In this document: in pieces, positions 48,029 to 61,940 of the stretch
How positions within the stretch are numbered: position 1 is the stretch's first letter
Layout: every line of letters starts with the position of its first letter
Assembly (NCBI RefSeq): GCF_007845675.1
Contig: NZ_VOBR01000008.1
Coordinates: 62,001-126,000 of the forward strand
Direction: 5' to 3'
From: Lentzea tibetensis
GTDB taxonomy: Bacteria > Actinomycetota > Actinomycetes > Mycobacteriales > Pseudonocardiaceae
Length of the DNA: 64,000 nt
Notes under the pieces: model-generated
Database searches by the model: none
What the model was told of the DNA's origin: nothing
The model's input: only the letters and a program-made list of their open reading frames with translations
Position numbers and translations under genes: made by a program

Positions 48029-48103
<75 letters not shown>

Positions 48104-51410: not shown

Positions 51411-51758
51411 TTAAGCAGCCGTTGACTGAGCCCGTGCATTTCGGGCGCGTTTCGGTGCACGCGCTTTCAGTCTCGTCGTTGGATTGGTTACACGAACTTC
51501 CCGCGCTTGCGCGAGCTGGTCATGATGGGCGGCGGGCACGACCAGTTCGACCGGGCGCCTCTCGAATATTGCGACGATTTCCGATACATGTTCATCCGTG
51601 AATAGGTACCGGCCGCCAATCCAGCTGAACGGAATTCGACGATTACGCGCTTGTTCTTTGATCCACCACTCTGAGCAGCCGAGACGCTTTGCGACGTCGC
51701 GCGGCCGGTGAAGGACCGAATCACTCGTAGGCCGGTCCATGGATACCTGCTTGGCCAT
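51411..51758 (-). CDS. xis: Excisionase-like HTH protein
   Basis: 115 residues from ATG 51758 with ggaggcacc upstream. MerR/excisionase-type HTH: HRPRDVAKRLGCSEWWIKEQARNRRIPFSWIGGRYLFTDEHV (cut: RDVAKRLGCSEWWIKEQ), then a basic C-terminal tail. Directs excision with Int. Lies 64 bp upstream of int in the same direction. Confidence 0.85.
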   Translation of the reverse strand: MAKQVSMDRPTSDSVLHRPRDVAKRLGCSEWWIKEQARNRRIPFSWIGGRYLFTDEHVSEIVAIFERRPVELVVPAAHHDQLAQAREVRVTNPTTRLKARAPKRARNARAQSTAA

Positions 51759-51777
51759 CGTGGTGCCTCCCCTGGAT

Positions 51778-51868
51778 GGGACAGGTGGGACAGCGCTGGG
51801 CGCGCACTGTCCCACCTGGTTTGTGCTGGTCAGGTGGCGTGGTCGGACAGGTGGGACAGGTGGGACAG
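51778..51868. repeat. Iteron-like ggacaggtgg repeats between xis and the RepA-like gene
   Basis: GGGACAGGTGGGACAG at 51778-51793, an inverted ctgtcccacctgg at 51808-51820, and GGACAGGTGGGACAGGTGGGACAG (24 bp; here 51845-51868) in direct orientation, period 10 bp. Such phased repeats are typical of replication-initiator or regulator sites. Confidence 0.55.
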
Positions 51869-51896: not shown

Positions 51897-52859
51897 TCAG
51901 AGCGGCACGAAGTACTGGCTGGTGGCGTTCTTGGTGAGTTGGTTCGCGTCGCACATGCGGGCGCAGGTGCGACGGACGTTGTCCGCGGTGACGCCGATGG
52001 CCGCGGCGATGTCTTTGGGTTGGCTGCCGGGGTGTTCGCGCAGGTAGCGCAGGATCAGGGCGCGGGTGTCTCCGACGGTGTGGTCGATGGCGGGGCCGTC
52101 GAGGATCGACCAGGCCCCGGTGGTGGGGTTGAAGGACAGGGCGTGGTCGGCTTCTTCGACGTCGCGGCCGGTGACGTGCAGGACGCCGTCTGCGTTGTTG
52201 CGGGCGCGTTCGAGCACGAGCACGGCGTCGGCTGCGCCTGCGATTCCGTTGGTGCCGGACACGGTGGCCAGGAAGTCCTCGTGCACGGCTTTGCGGACGT
52301 GGTGGACCAGCACCACGGCGATGCCGTAGTAGTCGGCCACCTTCTTGATGCGGGTCATGGCCGCGTAGTCCGCGTCATATTGCGGCACGTGGCCTTGCTC
52401 GGTTCCGCGGACTTTGGCGAACACGTCGATGACGACGAGTCGTGCGTTGCCGTTGCGGTGCAGCCACCCGGCGATGGCCCTGTCACCACCCTGTGGGAGT
52501 GGTGGGCAGTCCATTGCGAGGGTGAGCATCGGCGGCGCCGTTCCGATCTCCTTGAGCATCTTGCCCATGCGGTTCTGAAGGCGCCGTGGCGTGTCTTCCA
52601 GGGCCAGGTAGAGCACCGGGCCCGCGGCGATGTCGATCGACCCGAACGCCGGGCGGCCGGCCGCGATGTCGAGGCCCAGCCCGAGCGACATCCACGACTT
52701 GCCCACCTTCGGCGGACCGGCGAGCAGGGTGACGCCTTCGCACAGGACACCGGGGACGGCCCATTTCGGCGGCGGGAACTCGGCGGCCATGAGCCGATCG
52801 GCTGTCCACGTCTCGCCGAACAGGTTGGCGTTCTCTGCTGGCGGCTGCGGTTCTGTCAT
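51897..52859 (-). CDS. RepA-like hexameric AAA/RecA-fold ATPase
   Basis: 320 residues. Walker A GPPKVGKS (about 48-55), Walker B LVVIDVFAKV (about 141-150), VVLVHHVRKAVHEDFLATVSGTNGIAGAADAVLVLER (cut: VLVHHVRKA) typical of RSF1010 RepA-like helicases, and a C-terminal winged helix (about 260-315: KDIAAAIGVTADNVRRT). Likely helicase for element replication with the prim-pol protein. Confidence 0.82.
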   Translation of the reverse strand: MTEPQPPAENANLFGETWTADRLMAAEFPPPKWAVPGVLCEGVTLLAGPPKVGKSWMSLGLGLDIAAGRPAFGSIDIAAGPVLYLALEDTPRRLQNRMGKMLKEIGTAPPMLTLAMDCPPLPQGGDRAIAGWLHRNGNARLVVIDVFAKVRGTEQGHVPQYDADYAAMTRIKKVADYYGIAVVLVHHVRKAVHEDFLATVSGTNGIAGAADAVLVLERARNNADGVLHVTGRDVEEADHALSFNPTTGAWSILDGPAIDHTVGDTRALILRYLREHPGSQPKDIAAAIGVTADNVRRTCARMCDANQLTKNATSQYFVPL

Positions 52860-53227
52860 GACGTCACCTCCTTGTGGTGTATGCGGAAGGTCTGGATTCC
52901 GGCTTGCTCAGCGAGTACGGCGGTCTGCACGGAGCCGCGGGATTCCGGGTGCAGGAAGGCCACGCAGACGTCTGCTCCGAGCTGGACCATGTGCCGGTTG
53001 CGGCGCGGGCCCGCTGCCTTTCCGTGCTGTTTCCAGTCGGGCTGGTGTTCCTCGGTCGGCAGGCCCCAGCCGCGCCAAATGTGTGCGGCGATGCGGTCCG
53101 CTCCTCGGCAGCCGCCGTGCACGAGCACGGCTGTCGGGTAGCAGGCGCGGACAACGGCGAGCATTCGCCGAAGGCGGTGTACATCGGACCAGTCGCGGCT
53201 CCCGGTCACGAGCACGCGGCCGGTCAC
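52856..53227 (-). CDS. SLOG-family protein (YspA/DUF2493-like)
   Basis: 123 residues, GTG start. Rossmann-like SLOG fold: VLVTGSRDWSDVHRLRRML, VHGGCRGADRIA (about 37-48) and the pattern NRHMVQLGADVCVAF. SLOG proteins bind nucleotides such as ADP-ribose derivatives. GTGA overlap with the prim-pol gene and ATGA with the RepA-like gene, so it belongs to the replication operon. Confidence 0.8.
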   Translation of the reverse strand: MTGRVLVTGSRDWSDVHRLRRMLAVVRACYPTAVLVHGGCRGADRIAAHIWRGWGLPTEEHQPDWKQHGKAAGPRRNRHMVQLGADVCVAFLHPESRGSVQTAVLAEQAGIQTFRIHHKEVTS

Positions 53228-54147
53228 GCGGCCACCTTCCGCGGCCGTCGCGCGCCCGCTCGAAGACCGGAGGTGATGGTTCCTTCGGCCTTGAAGATCC
53301 GACTGGGGTTGACGGCGATGTATCCGGCCGCTGCGTGCATGAGCACGTCCCGCACCTCCTGTTCGGTGAGTTCTCCCCCGGCCACGAGTTGCCCGAGGTT
53401 CTGCGCGGCCATGTAGAGCGCGCCGTTGCGCTCCCCGGATGCCGCGCCTTCGACACGGGCGACCTCAGCGGCGATCGCCGCGGCCAGGTACCGGCCGCGT
53501 TTGCCCGGCGCCTGCAACCGGGCAGGCGGGACCGGCGGACGCGACGGAGCCGGACGCAGCCGCTCAGCCAGCCACGCAGGCAGGTCGACCACCGGCAGGT
53601 CCTCGGTCACCTGGTAGGTCCGGCCGTGCACGACCGATCCGGCCGCGACGACGTACCCGCCGTGTGCGCGGGTGTCGATGTGCCAGCCCAACCGGCCCTG
53701 GGTGTTGCGGTACTCGAGTTCTGCGGGCGCGGTGAAGTACAGGTGCAGCCCGCCGGACGGCGTGGCCACGGTCCGGGTCGGCGGCAAGGTGTTGCCGCTG
53801 TCGTTGGCGAGCATCGCGAGGACTTCGCTCCCGTGCGCGACGCCGTCCAGGTCCGTCCCGGCCGGCCGGACGTCACCGGGCTTGGCGGCGTCCAGGTCCA
53901 CCACGACGAGTCCGGCGGGGCCGGTGGCCAGCCCGATGTTGTAGGGCCCGTGGGTCCAGCAGCGTCGGATGCGGTCGGGGTCGGTGGTGGCGCGCCGCTC
54001 CCAGTCCCGCACCTCAGGGGCTTTGCCGCCGGGCACGAGCGGAAAGACCGGCCAGCCGCGTGCGGCGGCAGCCAGCGCAGCGTCCAGCAGTGGGTTGTCC
54101 GGGTCCTCGTCCGGCGTGCCGATCAGGGTGGTGGTGTGGCTGGTCAT
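53224..54147 (-). CDS. Bifunctional DNA primase/polymerase (RepPP type replicase)
   Basis: 307 residues from ATG 54147. Prim-pol fold with GWPVFPLVPGGKAP (about 29-42), catalytic acidic pair in VVVDLDAAKPGD (DLD about 80-82) and TPSGGLHLYFTAP. The C-terminal half has helices with RYLAAAIAAEVARVEGA, a PriCT-like region. Prim-pol is one of three replicase classes of AICEs. A conserved hairpin module precedes it (54207-54251). Confidence 0.85.
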   Translation of the reverse strand: MTSHTTTLIGTPDEDPDNPLLDAALAAAARGWPVFPLVPGGKAPEVRDWERRATTDPDRIRRCWTHGPYNIGLATGPAGLVVVDLDAAKPGDVRPAGTDLDGVAHGSEVLAMLANDSGNTLPPTRTVATPSGGLHLYFTAPAELEYRNTQGRLGWHIDTRAHGGYVVAAGSVVHGRTYQVTEDLPVVDLPAWLAERLRPAPSRPPVPPARLQAPGKRGRYLAAAIAAEVARVEGAASGERNGALYMAAQNLGQLVAGGELTEQEVRDVLMHAAAGYIAVNPSRIFKAEGTITSGLRAGARRPRKVAA

Positions 54148-54206
54148 CGTTTTCTCCCATGTGGACGGTGGTCGTGCACGGGGTTGAGTTCTCCTGGTGG
54201 GAACCA

Positions 54207-54251
54207 GCGCCGGGGACGGATGGTCACGTCCCCGGCGCGAGCAGCACGGGG
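54207..54251 (-). promoter_or_regulatory. Hairpin module C, upstream of prim-pol
   Basis: gcgccggggac (54207-54217) pairs perfectly with gtccccggcgc (54228-54238). The loop and 3' arm carry GTCACGTCC (54223-54231). The flank gagcagcac matches modules A and B. Confidence 0.65.
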
Positions 54252-54254
54252 TGT

Positions 54255-55832
54255 TCAGGCGAGGACTGCGGCGAGACGCCCGGCGAGCCATTGGGCGACG
54301 TTGGATGAGACGGCGTTTCCGGCCTGCATGGTCTGTTCGGCGATGTTGCCGGTGACCGCGTAGGTGTCGGGGAAGCGTTGGGCGCGCAGCTGCTCGCGGG
54401 GTCGCAGCATGCGGTAGCGGCAGTCATCGACGTCGACCGCGGCGCGGAGCATGCCGTGTTGCTCGCGGGTGGCCACGGTGGACAGCGGCTGATCGGTGCG
54501 GTGTGGTTTCGCTCCCTTGCGGTAGGGGACGACCAGGGCGTGGTGGTCTCGGGTGGTGACCGTGCCGAACGGGTCGCCGATGGTCTTGGCGGAGTGGCGG
54601 GGATCGAGGTTCCCGCCGTAGTTCTTGACGTAGAAGGCGTTCTCCGCGCCGGGCGGCACGGTGAGCCCGTGGTGGTTGCCCCCAGCGGACACCGTCGTCA
54701 GCGGAGCGTTCACGTCGGTGGCGGTGGCGTGGTTGCGCAGCACGGTGACGAACGGCGCACACAGCAGCGCGTCGTTCTCCCGCATGGTCCGCGCGGGCAT
54801 CGGATGCGCGGGGCTGGTCGGGTCCGTGCGCCAAGTACCACCGGACGGCACGAGACAGCCCGGTGTGGCCAGCCCGTCCCCGATCTTCACAGTGCGGGTG
54901 TGCAGCGGCGCGGCACCGACCGGGTAGGCGCGGCCGTCGTCCCCACCGTGGGTGACCGTGACCATGGTCGGTTCGCCGAACATCGACAGCCCGACCTGGA
55001 TCCGCCGCATGGTGGACGCGGCCAGCGGCCGGGACCGGTCGCCGATGCGCTCGCCGAGATCGGTCCAGTCGATCGCGGCGGCGGCCGGCAGCACGAACGG
55101 CTCCACCAGGGCGTGACGGCACCCGCTGTTGGGACAGCGGTAGTCGTACTGCTGCCGGTACTTGCCGACCGTCCGGCCACGAGCACGCCGCCACGACTGC
55201 ACCGCCCGCACCTGCTGCCCGCACTCCCCGCACCACGCGAGCGGCGTGGGGGTGACGTCGGGAAGCGGGATGCCCTCACGCGTGAACGTCATGTAGAGCC
55301 GGTCGCGCCACTGCGGGGCGTGCGGGTTGGTGTCGTCGCCGACGTGCGCGGAGCTGACGCTGGTGAACTGAACGTTGTAGCCCAGCAGCTTCATGCCGCC
55401 GATCCACCAGTCGAACAGCTCCCAGTCGGTGGCGACGTCGACCACGTTCTCCACCAGCACCGCGCGGTAGCGGTGCACCTCGGTAGCGCGGATGACGTCC
55501 ATGAACGTGGCGCGGGTCCGCTCGAACCCGGCCCGCGCCACCGGTCCCTGCTCCAGCAGATCGAGCTGCGCGGTCTGCCGTTTTCGGCCGCCGGCCGGGC
55601 TGATCTCGGTGCAGATCGGCGAGGCCCACAGCACGTCGGTGCGCGGCAAGCGCCGCATGTCGTAGTTCGAGACGTCCGCGCACAGGTGCTCCGCGCCGGG
55701 GAAGTTCGCGGCGTGCGTCTCGATCGCTCGTGGCCAGTGGTTCGCGGCCAGCTTGAGCTCGAACCCCGCGGCGGACAGTCCGATCGAGGAACCGCCCGCG
55801 CCACAGAAGATGTCGGTGAAGGTCAGCGTCAT
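54255..55832 (-). CDS. DNA cytosine-5 methyltransferase
   Basis: 525 residues from ATG 55832. Motif I DIFCGAGGSSIGL (about 7-19), motif IV SPICTEISPAGG with catalytic Cys74 (SPIC in place of PCQ), VI ENV (about 128-130), VIII QWRDRL and X QAGNAVSSNVAQWL. A zinc-ribbon-like CGECG...CPNSGC sits in the target-recognition region. No restriction enzyme follows, so it is likely a self-marking or anti-restriction methylase, or part of a modification pair with the next gene. Confidence 0.88.
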   Translation of the reverse strand: MTLTFTDIFCGAGGSSIGLSAAGFELKLAANHWPRAIETHAANFPGAEHLCADVSNYDMRRLPRTDVLWASPICTEISPAGGRKRQTAQLDLLEQGPVARAGFERTRATFMDVIRATEVHRYRAVLVENVVDVATDWELFDWWIGGMKLLGYNVQFTSVSSAHVGDDTNPHAPQWRDRLYMTFTREGIPLPDVTPTPLAWCGECGQQVRAVQSWRRARGRTVGKYRQQYDYRCPNSGCRHALVEPFVLPAAAAIDWTDLGERIGDRSRPLAASTMRRIQVGLSMFGEPTMVTVTHGGDDGRAYPVGAAPLHTRTVKIGDGLATPGCLVPSGGTWRTDPTSPAHPMPARTMRENDALLCAPFVTVLRNHATATDVNAPLTTVSAGGNHHGLTVPPGAENAFYVKNYGGNLDPRHSAKTIGDPFGTVTTRDHHALVVPYRKGAKPHRTDQPLSTVATREQHGMLRAAVDVDDCRYRMLRPREQLRAQRFPDTYAVTGNIAEQTMQAGNAVSSNVAQWLAGRLAAVLA

Positions 55833-55870
55833 TGCCGTAGAGGCCTTTCTGGACGGTGAACAGGTGAGGA

Positions 55871-55927
55871 CTCGCGCCAGGAACGGGGTTGTCACGTCCC
55901 TGGCGCGAGCAGTGCGGATACCGCTAC
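55871..55927 (-). promoter_or_regulatory. Hairpin module B, upstream of the methyltransferase
   Basis: ctcgcgccagg (55871-55881) pairs with cctggcgcgag (55899-55909); GTCACGTCC is at 55891-55899; then cagtgcggataccgctac, nearly identical to module A. The stem differs from A at three pairs, each with compensation. Confidence 0.7.
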
Positions 55928-55953
55928 TGCAGGCCTGGTGGAGTGTGGTGCGG

Positions 55954-56793
55954 TCATGCTGCGTCTCCGATCTCGTCGAACAGCCCCAGTTGCCACGGCA
56001 TGGGTCGCGTGTGGTCGTTGAGGAGTCGGGCACGCCACTGGAGTGCGTAGGGCAGGCAGTTGGCGCAGTTCTTGCCACCGCGCGGATGGACCGTTCCGCA
56101 GACAGGCCGCCCGATACGGCGGGCGTCTTCGGACCACGCGAGCGAGTCAGCGGAGTAGGCCAGATCGCCGTACAAACGCAGACCCAAGGTCTTCGCCCCG
56201 AAGACGTGCACGCGGGTGATGCCCCGGCGGTGCAGGGCGCGGAGGATGTCGAGTACTTCCCTGGTGCCCTGCCTGCGGCATACCGACCCCAAGCACACGA
56301 GCGATTCCTGGGTGAGGTCGATCCCGGACCGCTCGTAGAGATCAGCGCACCGCAGGTACTCGTCCTTCTTGTACCCCTGCAACACCCGCCGCCACGGCAG
56401 GTCCGCATCGAGCATGGATAGCTCCACCGCGTTGTCCACCGTGAGCCGTTGGTGTTCTGGTACCGACAACTTGGTGCCGACGAAGTACAACCGCCCGGCC
56501 CAGCCACCGGAGATGACGATGGGCTCGCACATCCGGTCCTGCGGCGCGCACCACATCAACTGGCCGATCTCGTCGCGGTAGCGCCGCACCCGCGCCACGT
56601 ACTCCCGCGGCGGCACCGTCCAGTCGCCGAACTTCTGCAACTGGGTGAACCCACCGCTGTCCAGAGCCCACGGCGCAGCTGCGCGAGGCAGCGTCTTGCG
56701 GTCACGCAGCCGGGTGTCCGATACGAACAGCGGAACGCCCGCCCGCTCCAACGCCACAGGCTGGTGGAAGCCCAGAAGGAACTCAGTTCTCAT
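55954..56793 (-). CDS. TGT-fold protein, probable DpdA-like DNA (deazaguanine) transglycosylase
   Basis: 279 residues. Two tRNA-guanine-transglycosylase-like hallmarks: ALDSGGFTQLQKFG (D45) and, later, HVFGAKTLGLRLYGDLAYSADSLAWS (cut: SADSLAWS; D216 as nucleophile candidate). A zinc-site-like C232, H236, C243xxC246 (VCGTVHPRGGKNCANC) follows. It is shorter than bacterial Tgt (about 370) and resembles stand-alone phage/island DpdA proteins that exchange guanine in DNA for a 7-deazaguanine. No deazaguanine biosynthesis gene is in the window, so the host's would be needed. Confidence 0.68.
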   Translation of the reverse strand: MRTEFLLGFHQPVALERAGVPLFVSDTRLRDRKTLPRAAAPWALDSGGFTQLQKFGDWTVPPREYVARVRRYRDEIGQLMWCAPQDRMCEPIVISGGWAGRLYFVGTKLSVPEHQRLTVDNAVELSMLDADLPWRRVLQGYKKDEYLRCADLYERSGIDLTQESLVCLGSVCRRQGTREVLDILRALHRRGITRVHVFGAKTLGLRLYGDLAYSADSLAWSEDARRIGRPVCGTVHPRGGKNCANCLPYALQWRARLLNDHTRPMPWQLGLFDEIGDAA

Positions 56794-56831
56794 CGCGGTT
56801 CCTCCCGTGTGGACAGTGGGCGCGCTGGGAA

Positions 56832-56889
56832 CTCACGGCAGGAACGATGGATGTCACGTCCCTGCCGTGAGCAGTGCGGATGCCGCTAC
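56832..56889 (-). promoter_or_regulatory. Hairpin module A, upstream of the DpdA-like gene
   Basis: ctcacggcagg (56832-56842) pairs perfectly with cctgccgtgag (56861-56871); GTCACGTCC is at 56853-56861; then cagtgcggatgccgctac, which overlaps the stop of the preceding gene. Confidence 0.7.
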
Positions 56890-58043
56890 CGGACGCGGCG
56901 GCCGTTGACCCAGACACCGCCGTTGACGTGTCCGGCTTGGACGATCGAGTGGCCGTCGTCGTCGGTGATGACGACCGGTCCGGTGCTGTTGTTTCCTTGT
57001 GGCGCAGCGGTTTCCGCCGTACGGGTGGGCTGGTGGCGGTTGTGCTGCTGCAGGGGTGGCGGTGTCACGTCCTTGGGCTGGCCTGCGTTGTTGCCGATGG
57101 TGAAGCCCCCACCAGGGCCGAAGGTGATCCCGCCGTCGATGACGTCGGCCTGGATGCCGCGCATCTCGCCGCTGACGTGGTGCTGGATGCGGCCGTTGTC
57201 GAACGTGGTGGCGAGCTGTTGCGGCCGCCCATGCGGTGCGTCGCCTGCGGTGTTCATGGTGCGGCCACCGCTGACGGTGTTGCCGTTGCCTCGAACCACC
57301 TGCGCGGTGCTGCCGGACCGGTTCGGGTGGCCGCTGACGGTGTTGCCGTTGCCGATGACGACCTGCGAGTGCTGCGGCCGGTCGTGCTGGATGCCGTGGC
57401 TGGCCTGCCCGGTGCTGATGGCCGAACCGGTCACGTCCCCCGTTGGGACTGGTCGGCCGTTGACGATGTCGCCGCTGGATACGACATTGCCGCTGCCGCG
57501 CACGATGGCCCTGCCGATGCCGTGCCCCTGGTGGTCGCTCATGGTGATGCCGCCGTTGACCTGGCCTGCCTGCACGACCGTGCCGGAGGTGGTGCCGCTG
57601 AACCGGGTGACCACGACGTCACCACTCGCGGTGGACTTCCTGGTGGGCGGGGTTTCGCGCGGCAGGGCGGCGAGCCGGTCCAGTGCGGCGGCGTAGGCGG
57701 CGCCGTCGCCGTTGTCCAGCGCTGTCTTGCTGGCTTCGATGGCGGCGGCTCGTTCCCGCTGCACATCGGTCACGTCGCTGTCCTGGCCACCGTCGGGTGT
57801 CACGTCCCCGGTGTGTGCAGGCGTCTTGTCGTCGTGGCTGTTCACGGAGTTCTCCCTGTGGTGCTTGAGTTCGGCGTTCGCGGTGTCGAGCCGTTGCTGT
57901 GCTTGCGCGATGGCGGCGTCATCGCCCGCGCCGCGGGCGTTGCGCAGGGCGCGGCGTGCTCGGCTGCGTTGCTGTCGGGCGTTCTGGGTGGCGCGGCTGC
58001 TGGTGGCGCTGCCGGTGCAGCGGCGTCCGCCTGCACGGCACAT
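56886..58043 (-). CDS. Gly/Asn-rich repeat protein with VQAGxVxGG motifs
   Basis: 385 residues. The start MCRAGGRRCTGS is common in proteins of actinobacterial mobile elements. A helical basic region (about 15-65) is followed by low-complexity sequence with three copies of a VQAGQVNGGIT-like motif (about 157-167, ADVIDGGITFG 299-309, VQAGHVNGGVWV 368-379) and three GNGNTVSG-type repeats (about 181, 229 and 250). Such motifs resemble bacterial amyloid-signalling (RHIM-like) and beta-solenoid sequences. No enzyme domain. Four GTCACGTCC sites lie inside or at the start of this gene. Confidence 0.6.
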   Translation of the reverse strand: MCRAGGRRCTGSATSSRATQNARQQRSRARRALRNARGAGDDAAIAQAQQRLDTANAELKHHRENSVNSHDDKTPAHTGDVTPDGGQDSDVTDVQRERAAAIEASKTALDNGDGAAYAAALDRLAALPRETPPTRKSTASGDVVVTRFSGTTSGTVVQAGQVNGGITMSDHQGHGIGRAIVRGSGNVVSSGDIVNGRPVPTGDVTGSAISTGQASHGIQHDRPQHSQVVIGNGNTVSGHPNRSGSTAQVVRGNGNTVSGGRTMNTAGDAPHGRPQQLATTFDNGRIQHHVSGEMRGIQADVIDGGITFGPGGGFTIGNNAGQPKDVTPPPLQQHNRHQPTRTAETAAPQGNNSTGPVVITDDDGHSIVQAGHVNGGVWVNGRRVR

Positions 58044-58068
58044 GTCACGTCCCTTTCGTGAGCTGGGG

Positions 58069-58383
58069 TTATCGGTTGCGGCGGGTTCGGGTGCGGTGAC
58101 GGTGCAGCGCGTTGTAGATGGCTCGGCCGCGGCGCAGCTTCAGCCCGGTGGCTTTGCAGCGCTTGCAGAGCTGGACGCCGCGGAACAGGCCGCTGCTGAC
58201 GTGGCGTCCGCTGCCCTTGCAGGACGGGCACGGCCGGAACGGGAAGGCCCAGCAGGACCAGGCGTATCCGGCTGCGAGCAGCGTGAGCAGCAGCGTGGCG
58301 ACACCGGACGCAGGATGGTCACTGATCGTGACCGCTGTGAGTTCGAGGACGAGTGCGAACGTCAGGATTGTTCGGGGTGTCAA
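58069..58383 (-). CDS. Small membrane protein with zinc-ribbon (DnaJ-type CxxCxGxG)
   Basis: 104 residues: two hydrophobic segments (about 5-20 and 27-46), then CPSCKGSG and, after 14 residues, CKRCKATG, a pair of CxxCxxxG motifs as in DnaJ zinc fingers, and a basic tail RHRTRTRRNR. Frequent next to TraB-type genes in conjugative actinomycete elements, but its role is unknown. Confidence 0.65.
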   Translation of the reverse strand: MTPRTILTFALVLELTAVTISDHPASGVATLLLTLLAAGYAWSCWAFPFRPCPSCKGSGRHVSSGLFRGVQLCKRCKATGLKLRRGRAIYNALHRHRTRTRRNR

Positions 58384-58521
58384 AGGACCCCTCCGGGTTG
58401 TTTTGGGCGCGCGAGTCCGGCGCCGCTAGGTGCTAGGGCGCTGATCAGCGGGTATGTGGGTGTCTAGAGGGGGGCCTAGGTCTAGAGGGTGCAGGCTCTA
58501 GACCTAGGGCCGGTGCGGTAG
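58384..58521. other. Gap between traB-like gene and small zinc protein
   Basis: 138 bp, with a perfect inverted repeat (58475-58508) and further tctagag/ctaggtgctaggg sequence, but no gene. Confidence 0.5.
58475..58508 (-). terminator. 13-bp perfect inverted repeat just downstream of the traB-like gene
   Basis: CCTAGGTCTAGAG (58475-58487) and CTCTAGACCTAGG (58496-58508) with an 8-nt spacer. It is less GC-rich than the context. It may be a terminator or a transfer-locus (clt-like) site. Confidence 0.5.
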
Positions 58522-60780
58522 CTAGCCGCGCTTGCGCTTTCCGTCACGCTCGGTGAGAGCGTCGGCGATGTGGGTGCGTTCGACACCCATGCGGTTGGCG
58601 CCCTTCCCGGTCGCGGGGTCGGTGCCCCAGACCTGTTTGGTGCTGATGCTGAACGGCTTGAGCGCCGCGGCCAGCTGGGTGGCCTTGGCCGCGCCGTTGG
58701 ACAGCTCGCCCCACGCCGCGTAGGCCGCGGGGCGCAGCTCCACCAGTGCGTCCACAAGGGACTCCGACCACGCCTTGTCCCTGCTGCCGAACACGTTGAG
58801 CAGGTCGCTCAGCAGCGTGTCCGCGGCCTCCACGTCGTCCACCGCGGCGTCCAGACCGGCCGCGTAGCCGGTGAGCCTGCCCGCGGTGACGCGGACAGCC
58901 CGGCACCGGGCCACGATCTTCTCGGCGCTGGGTGCGTCGATGTACACGCACTTGACCGTCTTGGTCTCGTCCGTGACGCCCTTGAGCAGCCCGATTCCCT
59001 TGTCCGTGAAGGAGAACGTGGTGGCGCGCTCACCGTTGCGGTAGGACGAGGTGCCCAACACCATGTCGTTGGGCACCTGCCCGGCCACCTTGAGGCAGAA
59101 CCTCAGGATCGCGTTGTCGCTGATCGGCGTGGGGATGGACTTGGAGTCCGGCCGCTGCGTGGCCAGCACCAGCACGATCCCGGTCGCCGGACCACGCTTC
59201 ACCAGGTCCGTGCAGATCTCCTCGAACTCCTTGCCGTAGTCAGGGTGCTCGAACCACACCTGGCACTCGTCCACCCCCACCACGACCGGATGTAGGCCCA
59301 GCGACTTCTTCGACGCCAGCTCCGTAGTCACCTTCGACTCCGGGCACAGGTCCTTCGGCAGTTCCCGGATCACCTTGGTACGGCGGCGCATCTCGTCGCG
59401 CAGCGCGCGCAGGTCCGCCAGCGCGTACTCGAGGTCCTCCGGATCGTCACCGGCCCGGTAGCGGTAGCTGACCGGCTCCAGCGGGGACAGGTCACCGGTT
59501 CCCTTGAGGTCGAAGGTGTGCAGCTCCGAGCGCGGGTCCATCGCGGCGATGAGCAGCAGCTCCCGCAGCGTGAACGTCTTGCCCATCCGCGGGACCGCGC
59601 CGATGATGCCGGCCACGTACATGAGCGTGAGCGACACCCACCCGCCGCGGACGTCCGTGCCGAACGGCTGCGGTTTGAACAGGTCGATCTTCTCGCCCTT
59701 GCGCAACGCCCACGCGGGCTGACGGGCCTTGCTCATGTCCTGGTCGCCTACCCACAGCACCAACCGTCCAGGGTGGACATCCGGGCGTCCCTCAGGCCAC
59801 ACGCACCCGAGCGGCCTGCCCAGACCGGACGCCAGCTTGTCCCGCTTGTCCAGCACCTCCGCCGCCGTGACGCCCGCGGGCAGGTCGACCTCGGCACGCC
59901 AGCCGGGGCCGTCGCGGGTGATCGGCGCGGTGAACCCGATCGCCCGCGCGTTCTTCGACATGGCCTGGTTGATCCCCGCGATACCCAGCACCATCAGGGC
60001 CTTCTCCACCACGTCGGAGGTGAGCTTCTGCAACTGCGCACCGACCACGGCACGAGACGTGACGGGCTGGTCAGCAGGGGTGCCGTACTTGCCCAGCGCC
60101 GCGGCCATGAGCGCGCCACCGGCCCACAGGATCCATGAGGGCACGAGGTCCGGCACGGACATCAGCACGATCACACCGACCGTGACCGCGACCAGCACGG
60201 CACCGGTCACGATCAGCCGCGTGCGGACACGGGCGTCACGCTGGTGCGACAGCTTGAGGTACATCTCGGCGTCCTGCCGCATCGCCGCACCGGAGCGCAC
60301 CGGGCGGCCTTCCATGTCTAACACCCAACGGCCGGTGGCCGCGGCGAGCATCAACGCCCCCAGCGGTGACCGCACAGCGAGCTTGAGTGCGTAGAGCGGG
60401 ACGCGGACGCCGTGGTAGGCGGTGGTGTGCGCGTAGTGCTTACCCACCCACACCGCGGTGGCGCGCGCTTCCTGCGCGGTCTTGAGGTAGTCCGGCACGA
60501 TCGGCAGGCGCTCGGTCTCGCGCAGCCGCCGCACCCAGTGCACGGAGTCGCCACCGGGCTGGTCGACCAGCGTCACCGACCCGGTCACGTCCCCCGCACC
60601 GGTCTCGTCGACCAGTTCAGCGTCAATGACCGGCGGCGCCACCTCGATCTCGGCACGCGGGTCCGCGTCGAGCTGCTGCTCGGGTGCGGGCTGGGGCCGC
60701 AGGTGCACCACGTTGTCCGTCACGCTGGCGTCTCCTCCGGTCGACTCGGCGGGGGTGGGGTGGTTCTCGGTCGTGGTCAT
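58522..60780 (-). CDS. FtsK/SpoIIIE-type DNA translocase (TraB-like, conjugative)
   Basis: 752 residues from ATG 60780 (AGGAGG 7 nt upstream; GTG 60783 is possible). Two membrane helices (about 188-230), then the motor: Walker A GAVPRMGKTFT (about 395-405), Walker B VVVGVDECQVWF (about 500), ATQRPDSKSIPT (about 553) typical of FtsK. The C-terminal domain has a winged-helix-like end. TraB proteins move double-stranded DNA between mycelia by binding repeated 8-bp sites, so an associated repeat is expected. Confidence 0.86.
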   Translation of the reverse strand: MTTTENHPTPAESTGGDASVTDNVVHLRPQPAPEQQLDADPRAEIEVAPPVIDAELVDETGAGDVTGSVTLVDQPGGDSVHWVRRLRETERLPIVPDYLKTAQEARATAVWVGKHYAHTTAYHGVRVPLYALKLAVRSPLGALMLAAATGRWVLDMEGRPVRSGAAMRQDAEMYLKLSHQRDARVRTRLIVTGAVLVAVTVGVIVLMSVPDLVPSWILWAGGALMAAALGKYGTPADQPVTSRAVVGAQLQKLTSDVVEKALMVLGIAGINQAMSKNARAIGFTAPITRDGPGWRAEVDLPAGVTAAEVLDKRDKLASGLGRPLGCVWPEGRPDVHPGRLVLWVGDQDMSKARQPAWALRKGEKIDLFKPQPFGTDVRGGWVSLTLMYVAGIIGAVPRMGKTFTLRELLLIAAMDPRSELHTFDLKGTGDLSPLEPVSYRYRAGDDPEDLEYALADLRALRDEMRRRTKVIRELPKDLCPESKVTTELASKKSLGLHPVVVGVDECQVWFEHPDYGKEFEEICTDLVKRGPATGIVLVLATQRPDSKSIPTPISDNAILRFCLKVAGQVPNDMVLGTSSYRNGERATTFSFTDKGIGLLKGVTDETKTVKCVYIDAPSAEKIVARCRAVRVTAGRLTGYAAGLDAAVDDVEAADTLLSDLLNVFGSRDKAWSESLVDALVELRPAAYAAWGELSNGAAKATQLAAALKPFSISTKQVWGTDPATGKGANRMGVERTHIADALTERDGKRKRG

Positions 60781-61940
60781 CACGCGGCCTCCTTCCTGAT
60801 CAGGTCACGCACATCGCTGGCGGTCTCAGACGCGCCCTTGAACATCGCGCGGATCGCGCTGGCCGACGGCCGCGCGGGCAACTCCCCCGCGGCGACGGCG
60901 GACCGCACCTTGATCAGCAGCTGGGCCGTCTTCTCGGGCAGTTGTGCCTGTACGATCCCGGTTTCCGACTCGTCGGCAGGCACCTCGGACACGGTGTCCA
61001 CGGTCGGCGGCGCGGCGATGCCGGCCGACTCGAGCACGGGCACGGTCACCGGCAGGATCACGCCGCCCACGATGACCAGCCCGCCGTTGCGGGCGGCCTC
61101 ACGATCGGCCTTGTGCTGGTGGCGCACGATGACCCGCGCCAGCGACCGGTCACGCCGTGACGAGTCCGGGCCGACGCCGTAGCGGTCGGTCCACGCCGCC
61201 GTCCACGCCTGATCCGCCGTGATACCGGCGCCGCGTGCGGCGGCGATGCTCGCAGCCGCCCACGACAGCCGCGGGAACCGCACCCGACGCCACGCCGCCC
61301 GACGCAGCTCCGCACTCGTCCTGCCCTCCACCGCCGCCCGGTCCACCGTGGACCGGATGTGGTGCAGCAGCACACCCAGCAACGACATTGCGGCCAGCGC
61401 AACACCCGCCACCGGCCCGTAGTCCGTGGTGGCGTGACCGAGCTGGATCCCTGCGGCGATACCGGACAGCAGCCACATCCACGTCAGCAGCGACCCGATC
61501 GGCGCACCCCTACGGGCGCGGCGGTGCGCCTCGAACGCGCACACCCACGCCCCCGCCTCCACCGCCAGCGGGAACAACCATGACCAGCCTGCGGGCACGT
61601 GCAACGTGGTGACGGCGAACGCTTGCTGAGCCCGCCATGCCAGCGTGATCGGCGCGACGATGACCGCTGCCCACAGCGCCGACAACAGCCAGTCCGGCAC
61701 CCGCGCCAGCGCACGCGACAGCTGCGCGGACCGCTCCGCACGAGCAGCACGACGATCCGCGCGGCGGCGGGCGGCGCGGCGCTCCGCCAACTCGTCCGCG
61801 GCCAGCTCGTGCTCACGCTGGACCTGGAACAGCCTCAGCGCGGTCTCGGCACGCTGCGCCTCCGCTGCGGCCTTGTGCTGCTCCGCCATCGCCGCGGCCA
61901 TCGTCCGCTCCGCGCGGCCGGTGTAGAAGGTGGTGCTCAT
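60780..61940 (-). CDS. DUF2637-like membrane protein, SpdB-like
   Basis: 386 residues. An Ala-rich coiled N-terminus (about 12-75), five hydrophobic segments (about 83-210) and a soluble C-terminal half with a HTH-like AWTAAWTDRYGVGPD. It is common beside TraB in AICEs and probably takes part in intramycelial spread. 1-bp overlap with the translocase (TGATG). Confidence 0.72.
   Translation of the reverse strand: MSTTFYTGRAERTMAAAMAEQHKAAAEAQRAETALRLFQVQREHELAADELAERRAARRRADRRAARAERSAQLSRALARVPDWLLSALWAAVIVAPITLAWRAQQAFAVTTLHVPAGWSWLFPLAVEAGAWVCAFEAHRRARRGAPIGSLLTWMWLLSGIAAGIQLGHATTDYGPVAGVALAAMSLLGVLLHHIRSTVDRAAVEGRTSAELRRAAWRRVRFPRLSWAAASIAAARGAGITADQAWTAAWTDRYGVGPDSSRRDRSLARVIVRHQHKADREAARNGGLVIVGGVILPVTVPVLESAGIAAPPTVDTVSEVPADESETGIVQAQLPEKTAQLLIKVRSAVAAGELPARPSASAIRAMFKGASETASDVRDLIRKEAA

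Follow-up and report, generated by a model that had tools for sequence, protein, structure and literature searches.

A predicted DpdA-family DNA transglycosylase carried by a tRNA-Pro integrative element of Lentzea tibetensis

Enzymes that resemble tRNA-guanine transglycosylases (TGTs) and act on DNA are known from bacterial chromosomes and from phages. In bacteria, DpdA is encoded within Dpd modification-restriction islands together with DpdB, DpdC, and DpdD and with QueCDE/FolE2 genes, while actinobacteriophages of the Rosebush type combine their DpdA with QueC, QueD, QueE, and FolE and, in Rosebush itself, contain preQ0 at about 28% of G according to PMC6884629. The same source describes DpdA-only phages as the largest group, reports a low level of dADG (about 0.02% of G) in the DNA of one of the two measured, Salmonella phage 7-11, and suggests host supply or uptake for such singletons, with the transporter YhhQ uncorrelated with any phage group. 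Six mycobacteriophages of the B1 type likewise carry, as their only preQ0-related gene, one for a DpdA-like protein (PMC9584339). Singleton DpdAs lacking preQ0 genes have had no assigned precursor source. Here, we describe a singleton DpdA-family protein, P0002, that is encoded next to a cytosine methyltransferase, P0001, in a stretch of 64,000 nucleotides of Lentzea tibetensis (contig NZ_VOBR01000008.1, positions 62,001 to 126,000; hereafter the window). Both genes sit in what is, by its gene content and repeats, a tRNA-Pro integrative element of ca. 25.3 kb and of the type known as actinomycete integrative and conjugative elements (AICEs; Table 1).

P0002 matched the Pfam profile PF23859 (DpdA) with an E-value of 1.6e-73 (247.6 bits against a curated cut-off of 27) and the PHROG profile phrog_1279 with 9e-75, and such matches, like those of the neighboring methylase, are by their scores not due to chance. 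The open reading frame is intact, and nothing else in the host genome matched PF23859. The two motifs for which a preliminary description, made from the letters alone, had proposed a stand-alone TGT-fold protein lie at residues 45-49 (DSGGF) and 214-217 (SADS). A zinc site of CxHxxC type had been proposed as well; a Cys/His cluster is indeed present, but it reads C232-x3-H236-x6-C243-x2-C246, and while H236 (96%), C243 (85%), and C246 (98%) are conserved in the family, C232 is shared by just 11 of 156 relatives scored. The acidic residues D45, D86, and D216 are kept in P0002 and invariant in all 157 relatives aligned. Pairwise dN/dS values of 0.20 against the nearest relative L093 (77% identical) and 0.21 against L094 (72%) indicate purifying selection as an average over both lineages of each pair, in which a recent relaxation in one of them would not show.

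An AlphaFold2 model of P0002, built from 48 sequences of the window and related loci, reached a pLDDT of 91.5. Its best Foldseek match was the DNA preQ0 insertase DpdA (7ui4; E 1.5e-7), ahead of tRNA TGTs and phosphoenolpyruvate mutase barrels (both from about 2e-4), though all of these matches are distant (TM-scores of 0.39-0.60, rmsd of 6 or more); by sequence alone, no solved structure matched below an E-value of 0.5. PF23859 was the sole Pfam match, and neither PF01702, the TGT family, nor any PADLOC family, DpdA included, matched P0002 at E-values up to 0.01. These results support P0002 as a TGT-fold DpdA-family protein that is not a recognizable tRNA TGT.

The same Pfam and PHROG families hold the singleton DpdA of mycobacteriophage Newman (gp20), and mycobacteriophage singletons are about 46-51% identical to P0002 among the full-length matches listed. 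Newman, too, has no preQ0 genes beside DpdA, but its gene lies in the structural region of a phage and that of P0002 among the replication and transfer genes of an integrative element. The DpdA of Dpd islands, e.g., at the locus L274, is also a TGT-like DNA enzyme with a role in 7-deazaguanine modification, yet belongs to a different family (PADLOC DpdA at 5e-184 for L274), and no DpdB or restriction part was recognized beside the DpdA gene of the element. Similarly, the Rosebush-type enzyme, for which we used gp2 of the Rosebush-genus phage Ares as a proxy, falls into phrog_7068/887 without a PF23859 match and aligns with P0002 only at a BLASTP E-value of 0.33.

The mobile nature of the locus, already suspected in the preliminary description, is borne out by an AICE backbone and by 44-bp att repeats: an exact repeat of the 3' end of the tRNA-Pro gene recurs beyond the end of the window, which gives the element its size. 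With the Prim-Pol AICEs surveyed in PMC3218068 it shares a tRNA att site, a tyrosine integrase, a Prim-Pol protein, and a candidate FtsK-like transfer protein, and its architecture is that of a Prim-Pol AICE except that the FtsK profile score stays under the curated cut-off. All its genes from integrase to Spd-like protein, including those for P0001 and P0002, are encoded on the minus strand. Compared to that survey DpdA is an added component, and the main text of PMC3218068 does not contain the terms queuine, tRNA-guanine, or ribosyltransferase. Among the matches listed from open-access PMC text, judged by titles and abstract openings, there was no paper about an AICE-borne DpdA.

To place the gene in its family, we scanned a collection of genomes of 84,980 species, in which 186 relatives were confirmed, and used the best 80 of these alongside the best 80 of 253 confirmed viral relatives; a simple gene finder called DpdA in 79 of the 80 genome loci and 70 of the 80 viral loci. 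At least two of Prim-Pol, TraB-like protein, and integrase are encoded within eight genes of DpdA in 45 of the 79 genome loci, with truncated contigs scored as misses, and FtsK-like/TraB homologues in 43 of 79. Accordingly, replication and transfer modules of AICEs carry DpdA repeatedly as an accessory. The nearest relative, from Saccharothrix (L093), is encoded in the order TraB, Prim-Pol, DpdA, AAA_25, a small gene, and int, with 4-base overlaps between DpdA and both flanking genes. Genes for tRNA-Tyr, Pro, Ser, Val, or Thr lie near six related loci scanned, and none near L091. Beyond chromosomes, PF23859 was found in 56 plasmid records, annotated as "hypothetical protein" at the match in 29 of the 30 listed, and in 399 phage records, 391 of them named Mycobacterium.

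Across the family, DpdA genes are accompanied by candidate precursor transporters. Of 160 loci, 35 (12 of the 80 from genomes and 23 of the 80 viral ones) have a gene for a VUT/YhhQ-like protein no more than 2.5 kb from DpdA. In all 37 scored pairs this gene stands upstream on the same strand, with a 4-base overlap in 26. These pairs were drawn from 209 loci, not counting L087, which was called as one frame, the loci L088, L168, and L218, where DpdA was not called, and L253, which has no DpdA of PF23859; some loci of our order-level sample come from the same genomes as other genome loci (e.g., L086/L165 and L088/L168). The 209 loci have 3717 called genes; wherever DpdA was among the calls of a locus, each VUT hit (38 altogether) is at most two genes away from it. 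We checked PF02592 in five VUT proteins of five loci, four beside PF23859 and also L274, and it was confirmed in all four DpdA-linked proteins tested (L352, L156, L208, and L167). On an Embleya plasmid the VUT-DpdA pair is annotated as "queuosine salvage", and in L087 one called frame reads VUT joined to DpdA, though a frameshift is suspected nearby and the fusion may not be real. E. coli YhhQ, a member of the VUT family, is known to transport preQ0 (cited in PMC6884629 and PMC11888242), and YhhQ is reported in about 9% of dpd islands (PMC11888242). The VUT-like proteins here are candidate precursor transporters.

Biosynthesis genes occur nearby as well: in L189 and L212, QueC and QueD are no more than four genes from DpdA, and L189 has QueE in this range too. 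In a quick FastTree phylogeny of 138 rows, VUT-linked proteins intermingle in part with those of AICE type (13 and 14 changes, respectively; 500 shuffles gave no value as low in either case), and two VUT-linked proteins belong to a well-supported group of 22 rows that surrounds P0002. Together with the host Dpd islands described below, transporter and QueC/D/E neighbors support a link of the PF23859 family to 7-deazaguanine supply.

Among 391 genomes, placed in Pseudonocardiaceae by the titles of shared records, PF23859 was found in 87 and QueC in 69, with both in 34 (15.4 expected), in counts that mix several QueC types. We examined the QueC loci of the 30 best-scoring of these 69 genomes and counted a Dpd island wherever DpdB and DpdC were found in the flanks of QueC, of which about 1.5 kb per side was covered, its identity resting on PADLOC matches for DpdA, DpdB, DpdC, and DpdD in L274 and on similarity to that locus. 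Eleven genomes from five genera have such an island, and 10 of them carry PF23859 (2.45 expected in 391 genomes; Fisher p 1.8e-6). The two are at least 0.99 Mb apart in G150, G490, G519, and G579, 95 kb apart in G578, and on different contigs in G684 and the other four of the ten. Canonical QueC, defined by an E-value below 1e-70 that we drew after seeing the data, accompanies DpdA in 15 genomes (5.3 expected), and in five (2.9 expected; p 0.14) without DpdB/C. Other QueC hits occur with DpdA in 19 genomes (10 expected; p 0.001), or in 13 (8.0 expected; p 0.04) once linked genomes, i.e., those where no more than 120 kb of one contig separates DpdA from QueC, are set aside; seven of the latter have a non-canonical QueC 43-68 kb off, and in G578 the QueC is canonical and part of the Dpd island. 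In the order-level sample, DpdA and QueC coincide in eight genomes (1.9 expected; p 0.0002), only three of which (G014, G150, and G204) have QueD, QueE, and FolE2 beside QueC.

Hosts of AICE-borne DpdAs were considered separately, using 41 of the 45 loci (each of the remaining four is from an organism already represented) without L133, i.e., 40 genomes. QueC was found in 17, QueC with QueD and QueE in 15, and a Dpd island in seven including the host of L093. Within Streptomyces, QueC occurs in six of 18 such hosts, chosen by record title, compared to 23 of 168 sampled genomes (p 0.04). Among the ten loci nearest to P0002 (L093-L102), of which nine hosts were searched and that of L101 left out, QueC, QueD, and QueE are present together in the hosts of L093, L094, L099, and L102; those of L095 and L096 have QueC without the other two, and at 1e-15 no QueC was found in those of L097, L098, and L100.

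Seven genomes carry a non-canonical QueC at a distance of 43-68 kb from a PF23859 DpdA, and in all four whose loci were retrieved (L297, L320, L323, and L325) it has a reverse-transcriptase neighbor. A QueC with the motifs YxQxHxxE, VPxRN, and YPDC (read by eye) is encoded next to a reverse-transcriptase-like protein at L046, L047, L048, L279, and L320-L325; most of these loci also encode what looks like a SUMF1-like protein, and L279 in addition a DUF6884 protein.

The preliminary description had called for a search of the host for deazaguanine synthesis genes, and for QueC and TGT the outcome is negative. The genome has no match to PF01702, and the two hits that it gave for QueC read as asparagine synthases in translation; we rejected preQ0/queuosine synthesis in this host (G000). 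Two hits to PTPS are present, one of them beside a gene resembling GTP cyclohydrolase II, with no QueE or QueC recognized within 1.5 kb on either side of either. These negatives refer to a draft that is 98.74% complete and in which QueE was not searched for on its own, nor were VUT or a Dpd island without QueC; no VUT gene is present in the window or at the locus L042. Since the searches for QueC and TGT were negative, the host of the window likely cannot make the modified guanine by itself, and P0002 would probably be idle there unless preQ0 is salvaged.

We consider, with middling confidence, that P0002 acts as a DpdA-family DNA transglycosylase and AICE accessory for conditional self-modification, probably idle in its present host and served by precursor from others. 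Asp45 and Asp216 would take the roles that two aspartates have in TGT catalysis, next to a Cys/His zinc site. When the element is excised, or has newly arrived in a cell as double-stranded DNA, the form in which AICEs are described to move (PMC3218068), the enzyme would exchange guanine in the element's own DNA for a 7-deazaguanine such as preQ0, a precursor that the element does not make and that the cell would have to produce or import. In hosts with a chromosomal Dpd island this swap might make the element look like self, and its advantage would lie in passing Dpd or other restriction, with the adjacent C5-methylase as a separate protective modification. More tentatively, element-borne PF23859 DpdAs in general, both the solitary ones of AICEs and those that form a cassette with VUT elsewhere, might be salvage-based self-modification devices that take up or borrow preQ0, including from Dpd-island hosts, and disguise double-stranded DNA as self during conjugation or infection. 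Singleton DpdAs would then be conditional rather than dead, and the enzyme described here may function only once its element reaches other hosts, since this one seems unable to make the modified base. The association of PF23859 singletons with a transporter-like gene in a tight operon (about a fifth of loci) and with Dpd-island hosts in one bacterial family makes the proposal directly testable, and it would extend 7-deazaguanine chemistry of DNA from phages and defense islands to integrative conjugative elements.

Several observations weigh against this proposal. The name of P0002 is given by homology, and we found no PF23859 member with proven activity, while the DpdA type of the phage group known for preQ0 in its DNA, that of Rosebush, is of another sequence family. 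In the DNA of the DpdA-only mycobacteriophage Orion, none of five 7-deazaguanines was detected as reported in PMC6884629. The VUT transporter is absent from all 45 AICE-type loci, the genome of the window itself gave no TGT match, no QueC hit other than asparagine synthases, and no recognized QueE or QueC within 1.5 kb of its PTPS hits, and five of the nine near-relative hosts checked are without QueC, QueD, and QueE together. P0002 departs from the consensus at R87 (W in 90%) and C167 (G in 97%). The co-occurrence tests at family level are post hoc, overlap with one another, and are not controlled for genus; they are also not independent, as the 40 AICE hosts overlap with the family sample (G397, G398, G404, and G407 share the same QueC coordinates with G483, G480, G442, and G479). 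A hand estimate with guessed genus sizes puts the genus-adjusted expectation at about 11 of the 15 genomes with canonical QueC and about six of the ten with islands, and part of the island signal is expected to reflect shared ancestry. Finally, among 169 Streptomyces genomes, the search center excluded, DpdA and the island coincide in three (1.1 expected; p 0.09).

Some of these points could also be read as signs of a passenger gene, i.e., a protein that is biochemically a DpdA but has no function in this lineage for lack of precursor, was kept only through recent transfer, and is starting to drift. We regard this as unlikely: the negative searches for QueC and TGT in the host and the departures at R87 and C167 would fit, as would the precedent of unmodified Orion, a B1 phage like Newman. 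Newman's DpdA matches the PF23859 profile, and we take that of Orion to be of the same family. Against drift, the frame is open, the three acidic residues are kept, and dN/dS, as an average of both lineages, is low. P0002 also departs at R136, V197, and A14, yet its number of departures at conserved columns (four; median 1) is equaled or surpassed in 29 of 158 sequences, which makes it no clear outlier.

Another possibility is that the base inserted by the enzyme is not a 7-deazaguanine; singletons in hosts that have no preQ0 would then be accounted for. The predominance of Mycobacterium names among the phage records with PF23859 would agree with this, given that Mycobacterium hosts are described as lacking the pathway in PMC6884629, but the VUT and QueC/D/E neighbors and the co-occurrence with Dpd islands point to 7-deazaguanine, and we consider such a different substrate improbable.

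The preliminary description had treated methylase and transglycosylase as a DNA-modification pair. The methyltransferase itself is real: P0001 starts with ATG and matched PF00145 (E 3e-30, 106.1 bits against a cut-off of 22), with motif I, PxC, and ENV present and its catalytic motifs intact, as well as phrog_116 (E 3e-60), though it scored 87.7 with TIGR00675 (dcm), under the cut-off of 100.65. Its motif SPIC (residues 70-73), which had been called atypical, is ordinary among its relatives, with S70, P71, and C73 invariant in 22 aligned sequences; we thus dropped SPIC as a sign of unusual chemistry, also as the Asn of motif X is retained. Phages do encode a C5-cytosine enzyme with SPxC of different chemistry, the cytosine carboxymethyltransferase CmoX, but by the criteria given in PMC12783734 CmoX has SPPC and an Arg in motif X, whereas P0001 has SPIC and keeps the Asn (GNAV). 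For this reason P0001 is expected to use SAM. Following a zinc-ribbon-like CxxC...CxxxxC segment, the C-terminal half of P0001 shows by eye several repeats of the type PLxTVxTRxxHxLV, possibly tandem target-recognition units.

As for a functional pair in which both enzymes hypermodify the same sites, a methylase neighbors DpdA here, in L036/L098 (one genome), in L076, and in L160, but the two are adjacent in just two of 79 genome loci and one of 70 viral loci (within eight genes in four of 79), the nearest relatives L093 and L094 have no methylase beside DpdA, and the two genes of the window are separate and flanked by hairpins. With adjacency in two of 79 genome loci compared to an AICE backbone in 45, the pairing is incidental, and a coupled system, which we rejected as not conserved, is very improbable. 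Least probable of all is that P0002 acts on tRNA or another RNA as the database name "queuine tRNA-ribosyltransferase" has it, because beyond the TGT-like fold and the names of PHROG and phage records, the missing PF01702 match, the DNA enzyme as best fold match, the host without TGT, and the place of the gene among replication and transfer modules all speak against it.

Table 1. Features of the AICE-type element (coordinates in window numbering).
Feature	Position	Strand	Basis
tRNA-Pro (CGG), integration target	48029..48103	+	
44-bp att repeat, 3' end of tRNA-Pro	48060..48103	+	exact repeat
Tyrosine integrase with internal LacI-type helix-turn-helix	49841..51352	-	PF00589, 40.1 bits vs 27.1
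Probable excisionase	51411..51815	-	HTH_17, 22.6 bits, below curated cut-off of 27
AAA_25 ATPase, putative replication role	51897..52859	-	Pfam
YspA/cpYpsA-related SLOG-family protein	52856..53227	-	Pfam
Prim-Pol replication protein	53224..54147	-	PF09250, 168.3 bits vs 22.8
Hairpin, GACGTGAC in loop, upstream of preferred Prim-Pol start	54206..54238	-	
C5-cytosine DNA methyltransferase P0001, 525 aa, phage-type, SPIC motif IV, GNAV motif X	54255..55832	-	ORF with ATG, Pfam, PHROG
Hairpin, GACGTGAC in loop, upstream of methylase gene	55871..55909	-	
DpdA-family (PF23859) transglycosylase P0002, 279 aa	55954..56793	-	intact ORF, Pfam/PHROG profiles, structure model
Hairpin, GACGTGAC in loop, upstream of DpdA gene	56832..56871	-	
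385-aa protein, no Pfam match, gene with several GACGTGAC copies	56886..58043	-	
FtsK-like (TraB-like) transfer protein	58522..60783	-	PF01580, 21.3 bits vs cut-off of 24
Membrane/Spd-like protein of transfer module (putative name), no Pfam match	60780..61940	-	
Second 44-bp att copy, outside the window	73326-73369 (contig C88 135326-135369)		exact repeat, 25.3 kb away

Within the integrase, residues about 307-347 form a LacI-type helix-turn-helix (PF00356, E 1e-14) between other domain matches. The Prim-Pol frame has its first ATG at 54291, with 54147 as the preferred start. The three hairpins have 10-14 paired bases and GACGTGAC at the start of the loop, their arms differ between copies yet remain paired, and Rfam gave no match for them at E-values up to 0.1. 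The repeat GGGACGTGAC occurs seven times in the window (0.58 expected), at 54223-60593, always inside the element and on the minus strand, i.e., that of the transfer genes. On the traB strand, the 8-mer GACGTGAC has five copies in L097, four in L084, and none to two in 19 other AICE loci, and other 8-mers of the element are as over-represented. The repeat may be a TraB recognition (clt) repeat; according to PMC9513070, no such repeat had been described for pSAM2.

In the viral contig that held the closest methylase relative of one search (L253:2998-6185), the methylase gene is followed by genes for a 142-aa protein, a VUT protein, and a member of phrog_15826 with 220 aa. This last protein has the motif ADNGRF and might also be a TGT-like enzyme.

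That no restriction genes accompany the modification genes, as had been noted at first, holds for the window proteins scanned, which do not include every open reading frame of the element, but outside the window, in its distal part, the element encodes a NACHT protein of 1263 aa (L042:5654-9445), a protein resembling PycTM effectors (L042:1252-1731), and a phosphotransferase-family protein. The NACHT protein has a weak PDC-S73 match at its N-terminus and lies in a stretch of lower G+C content.

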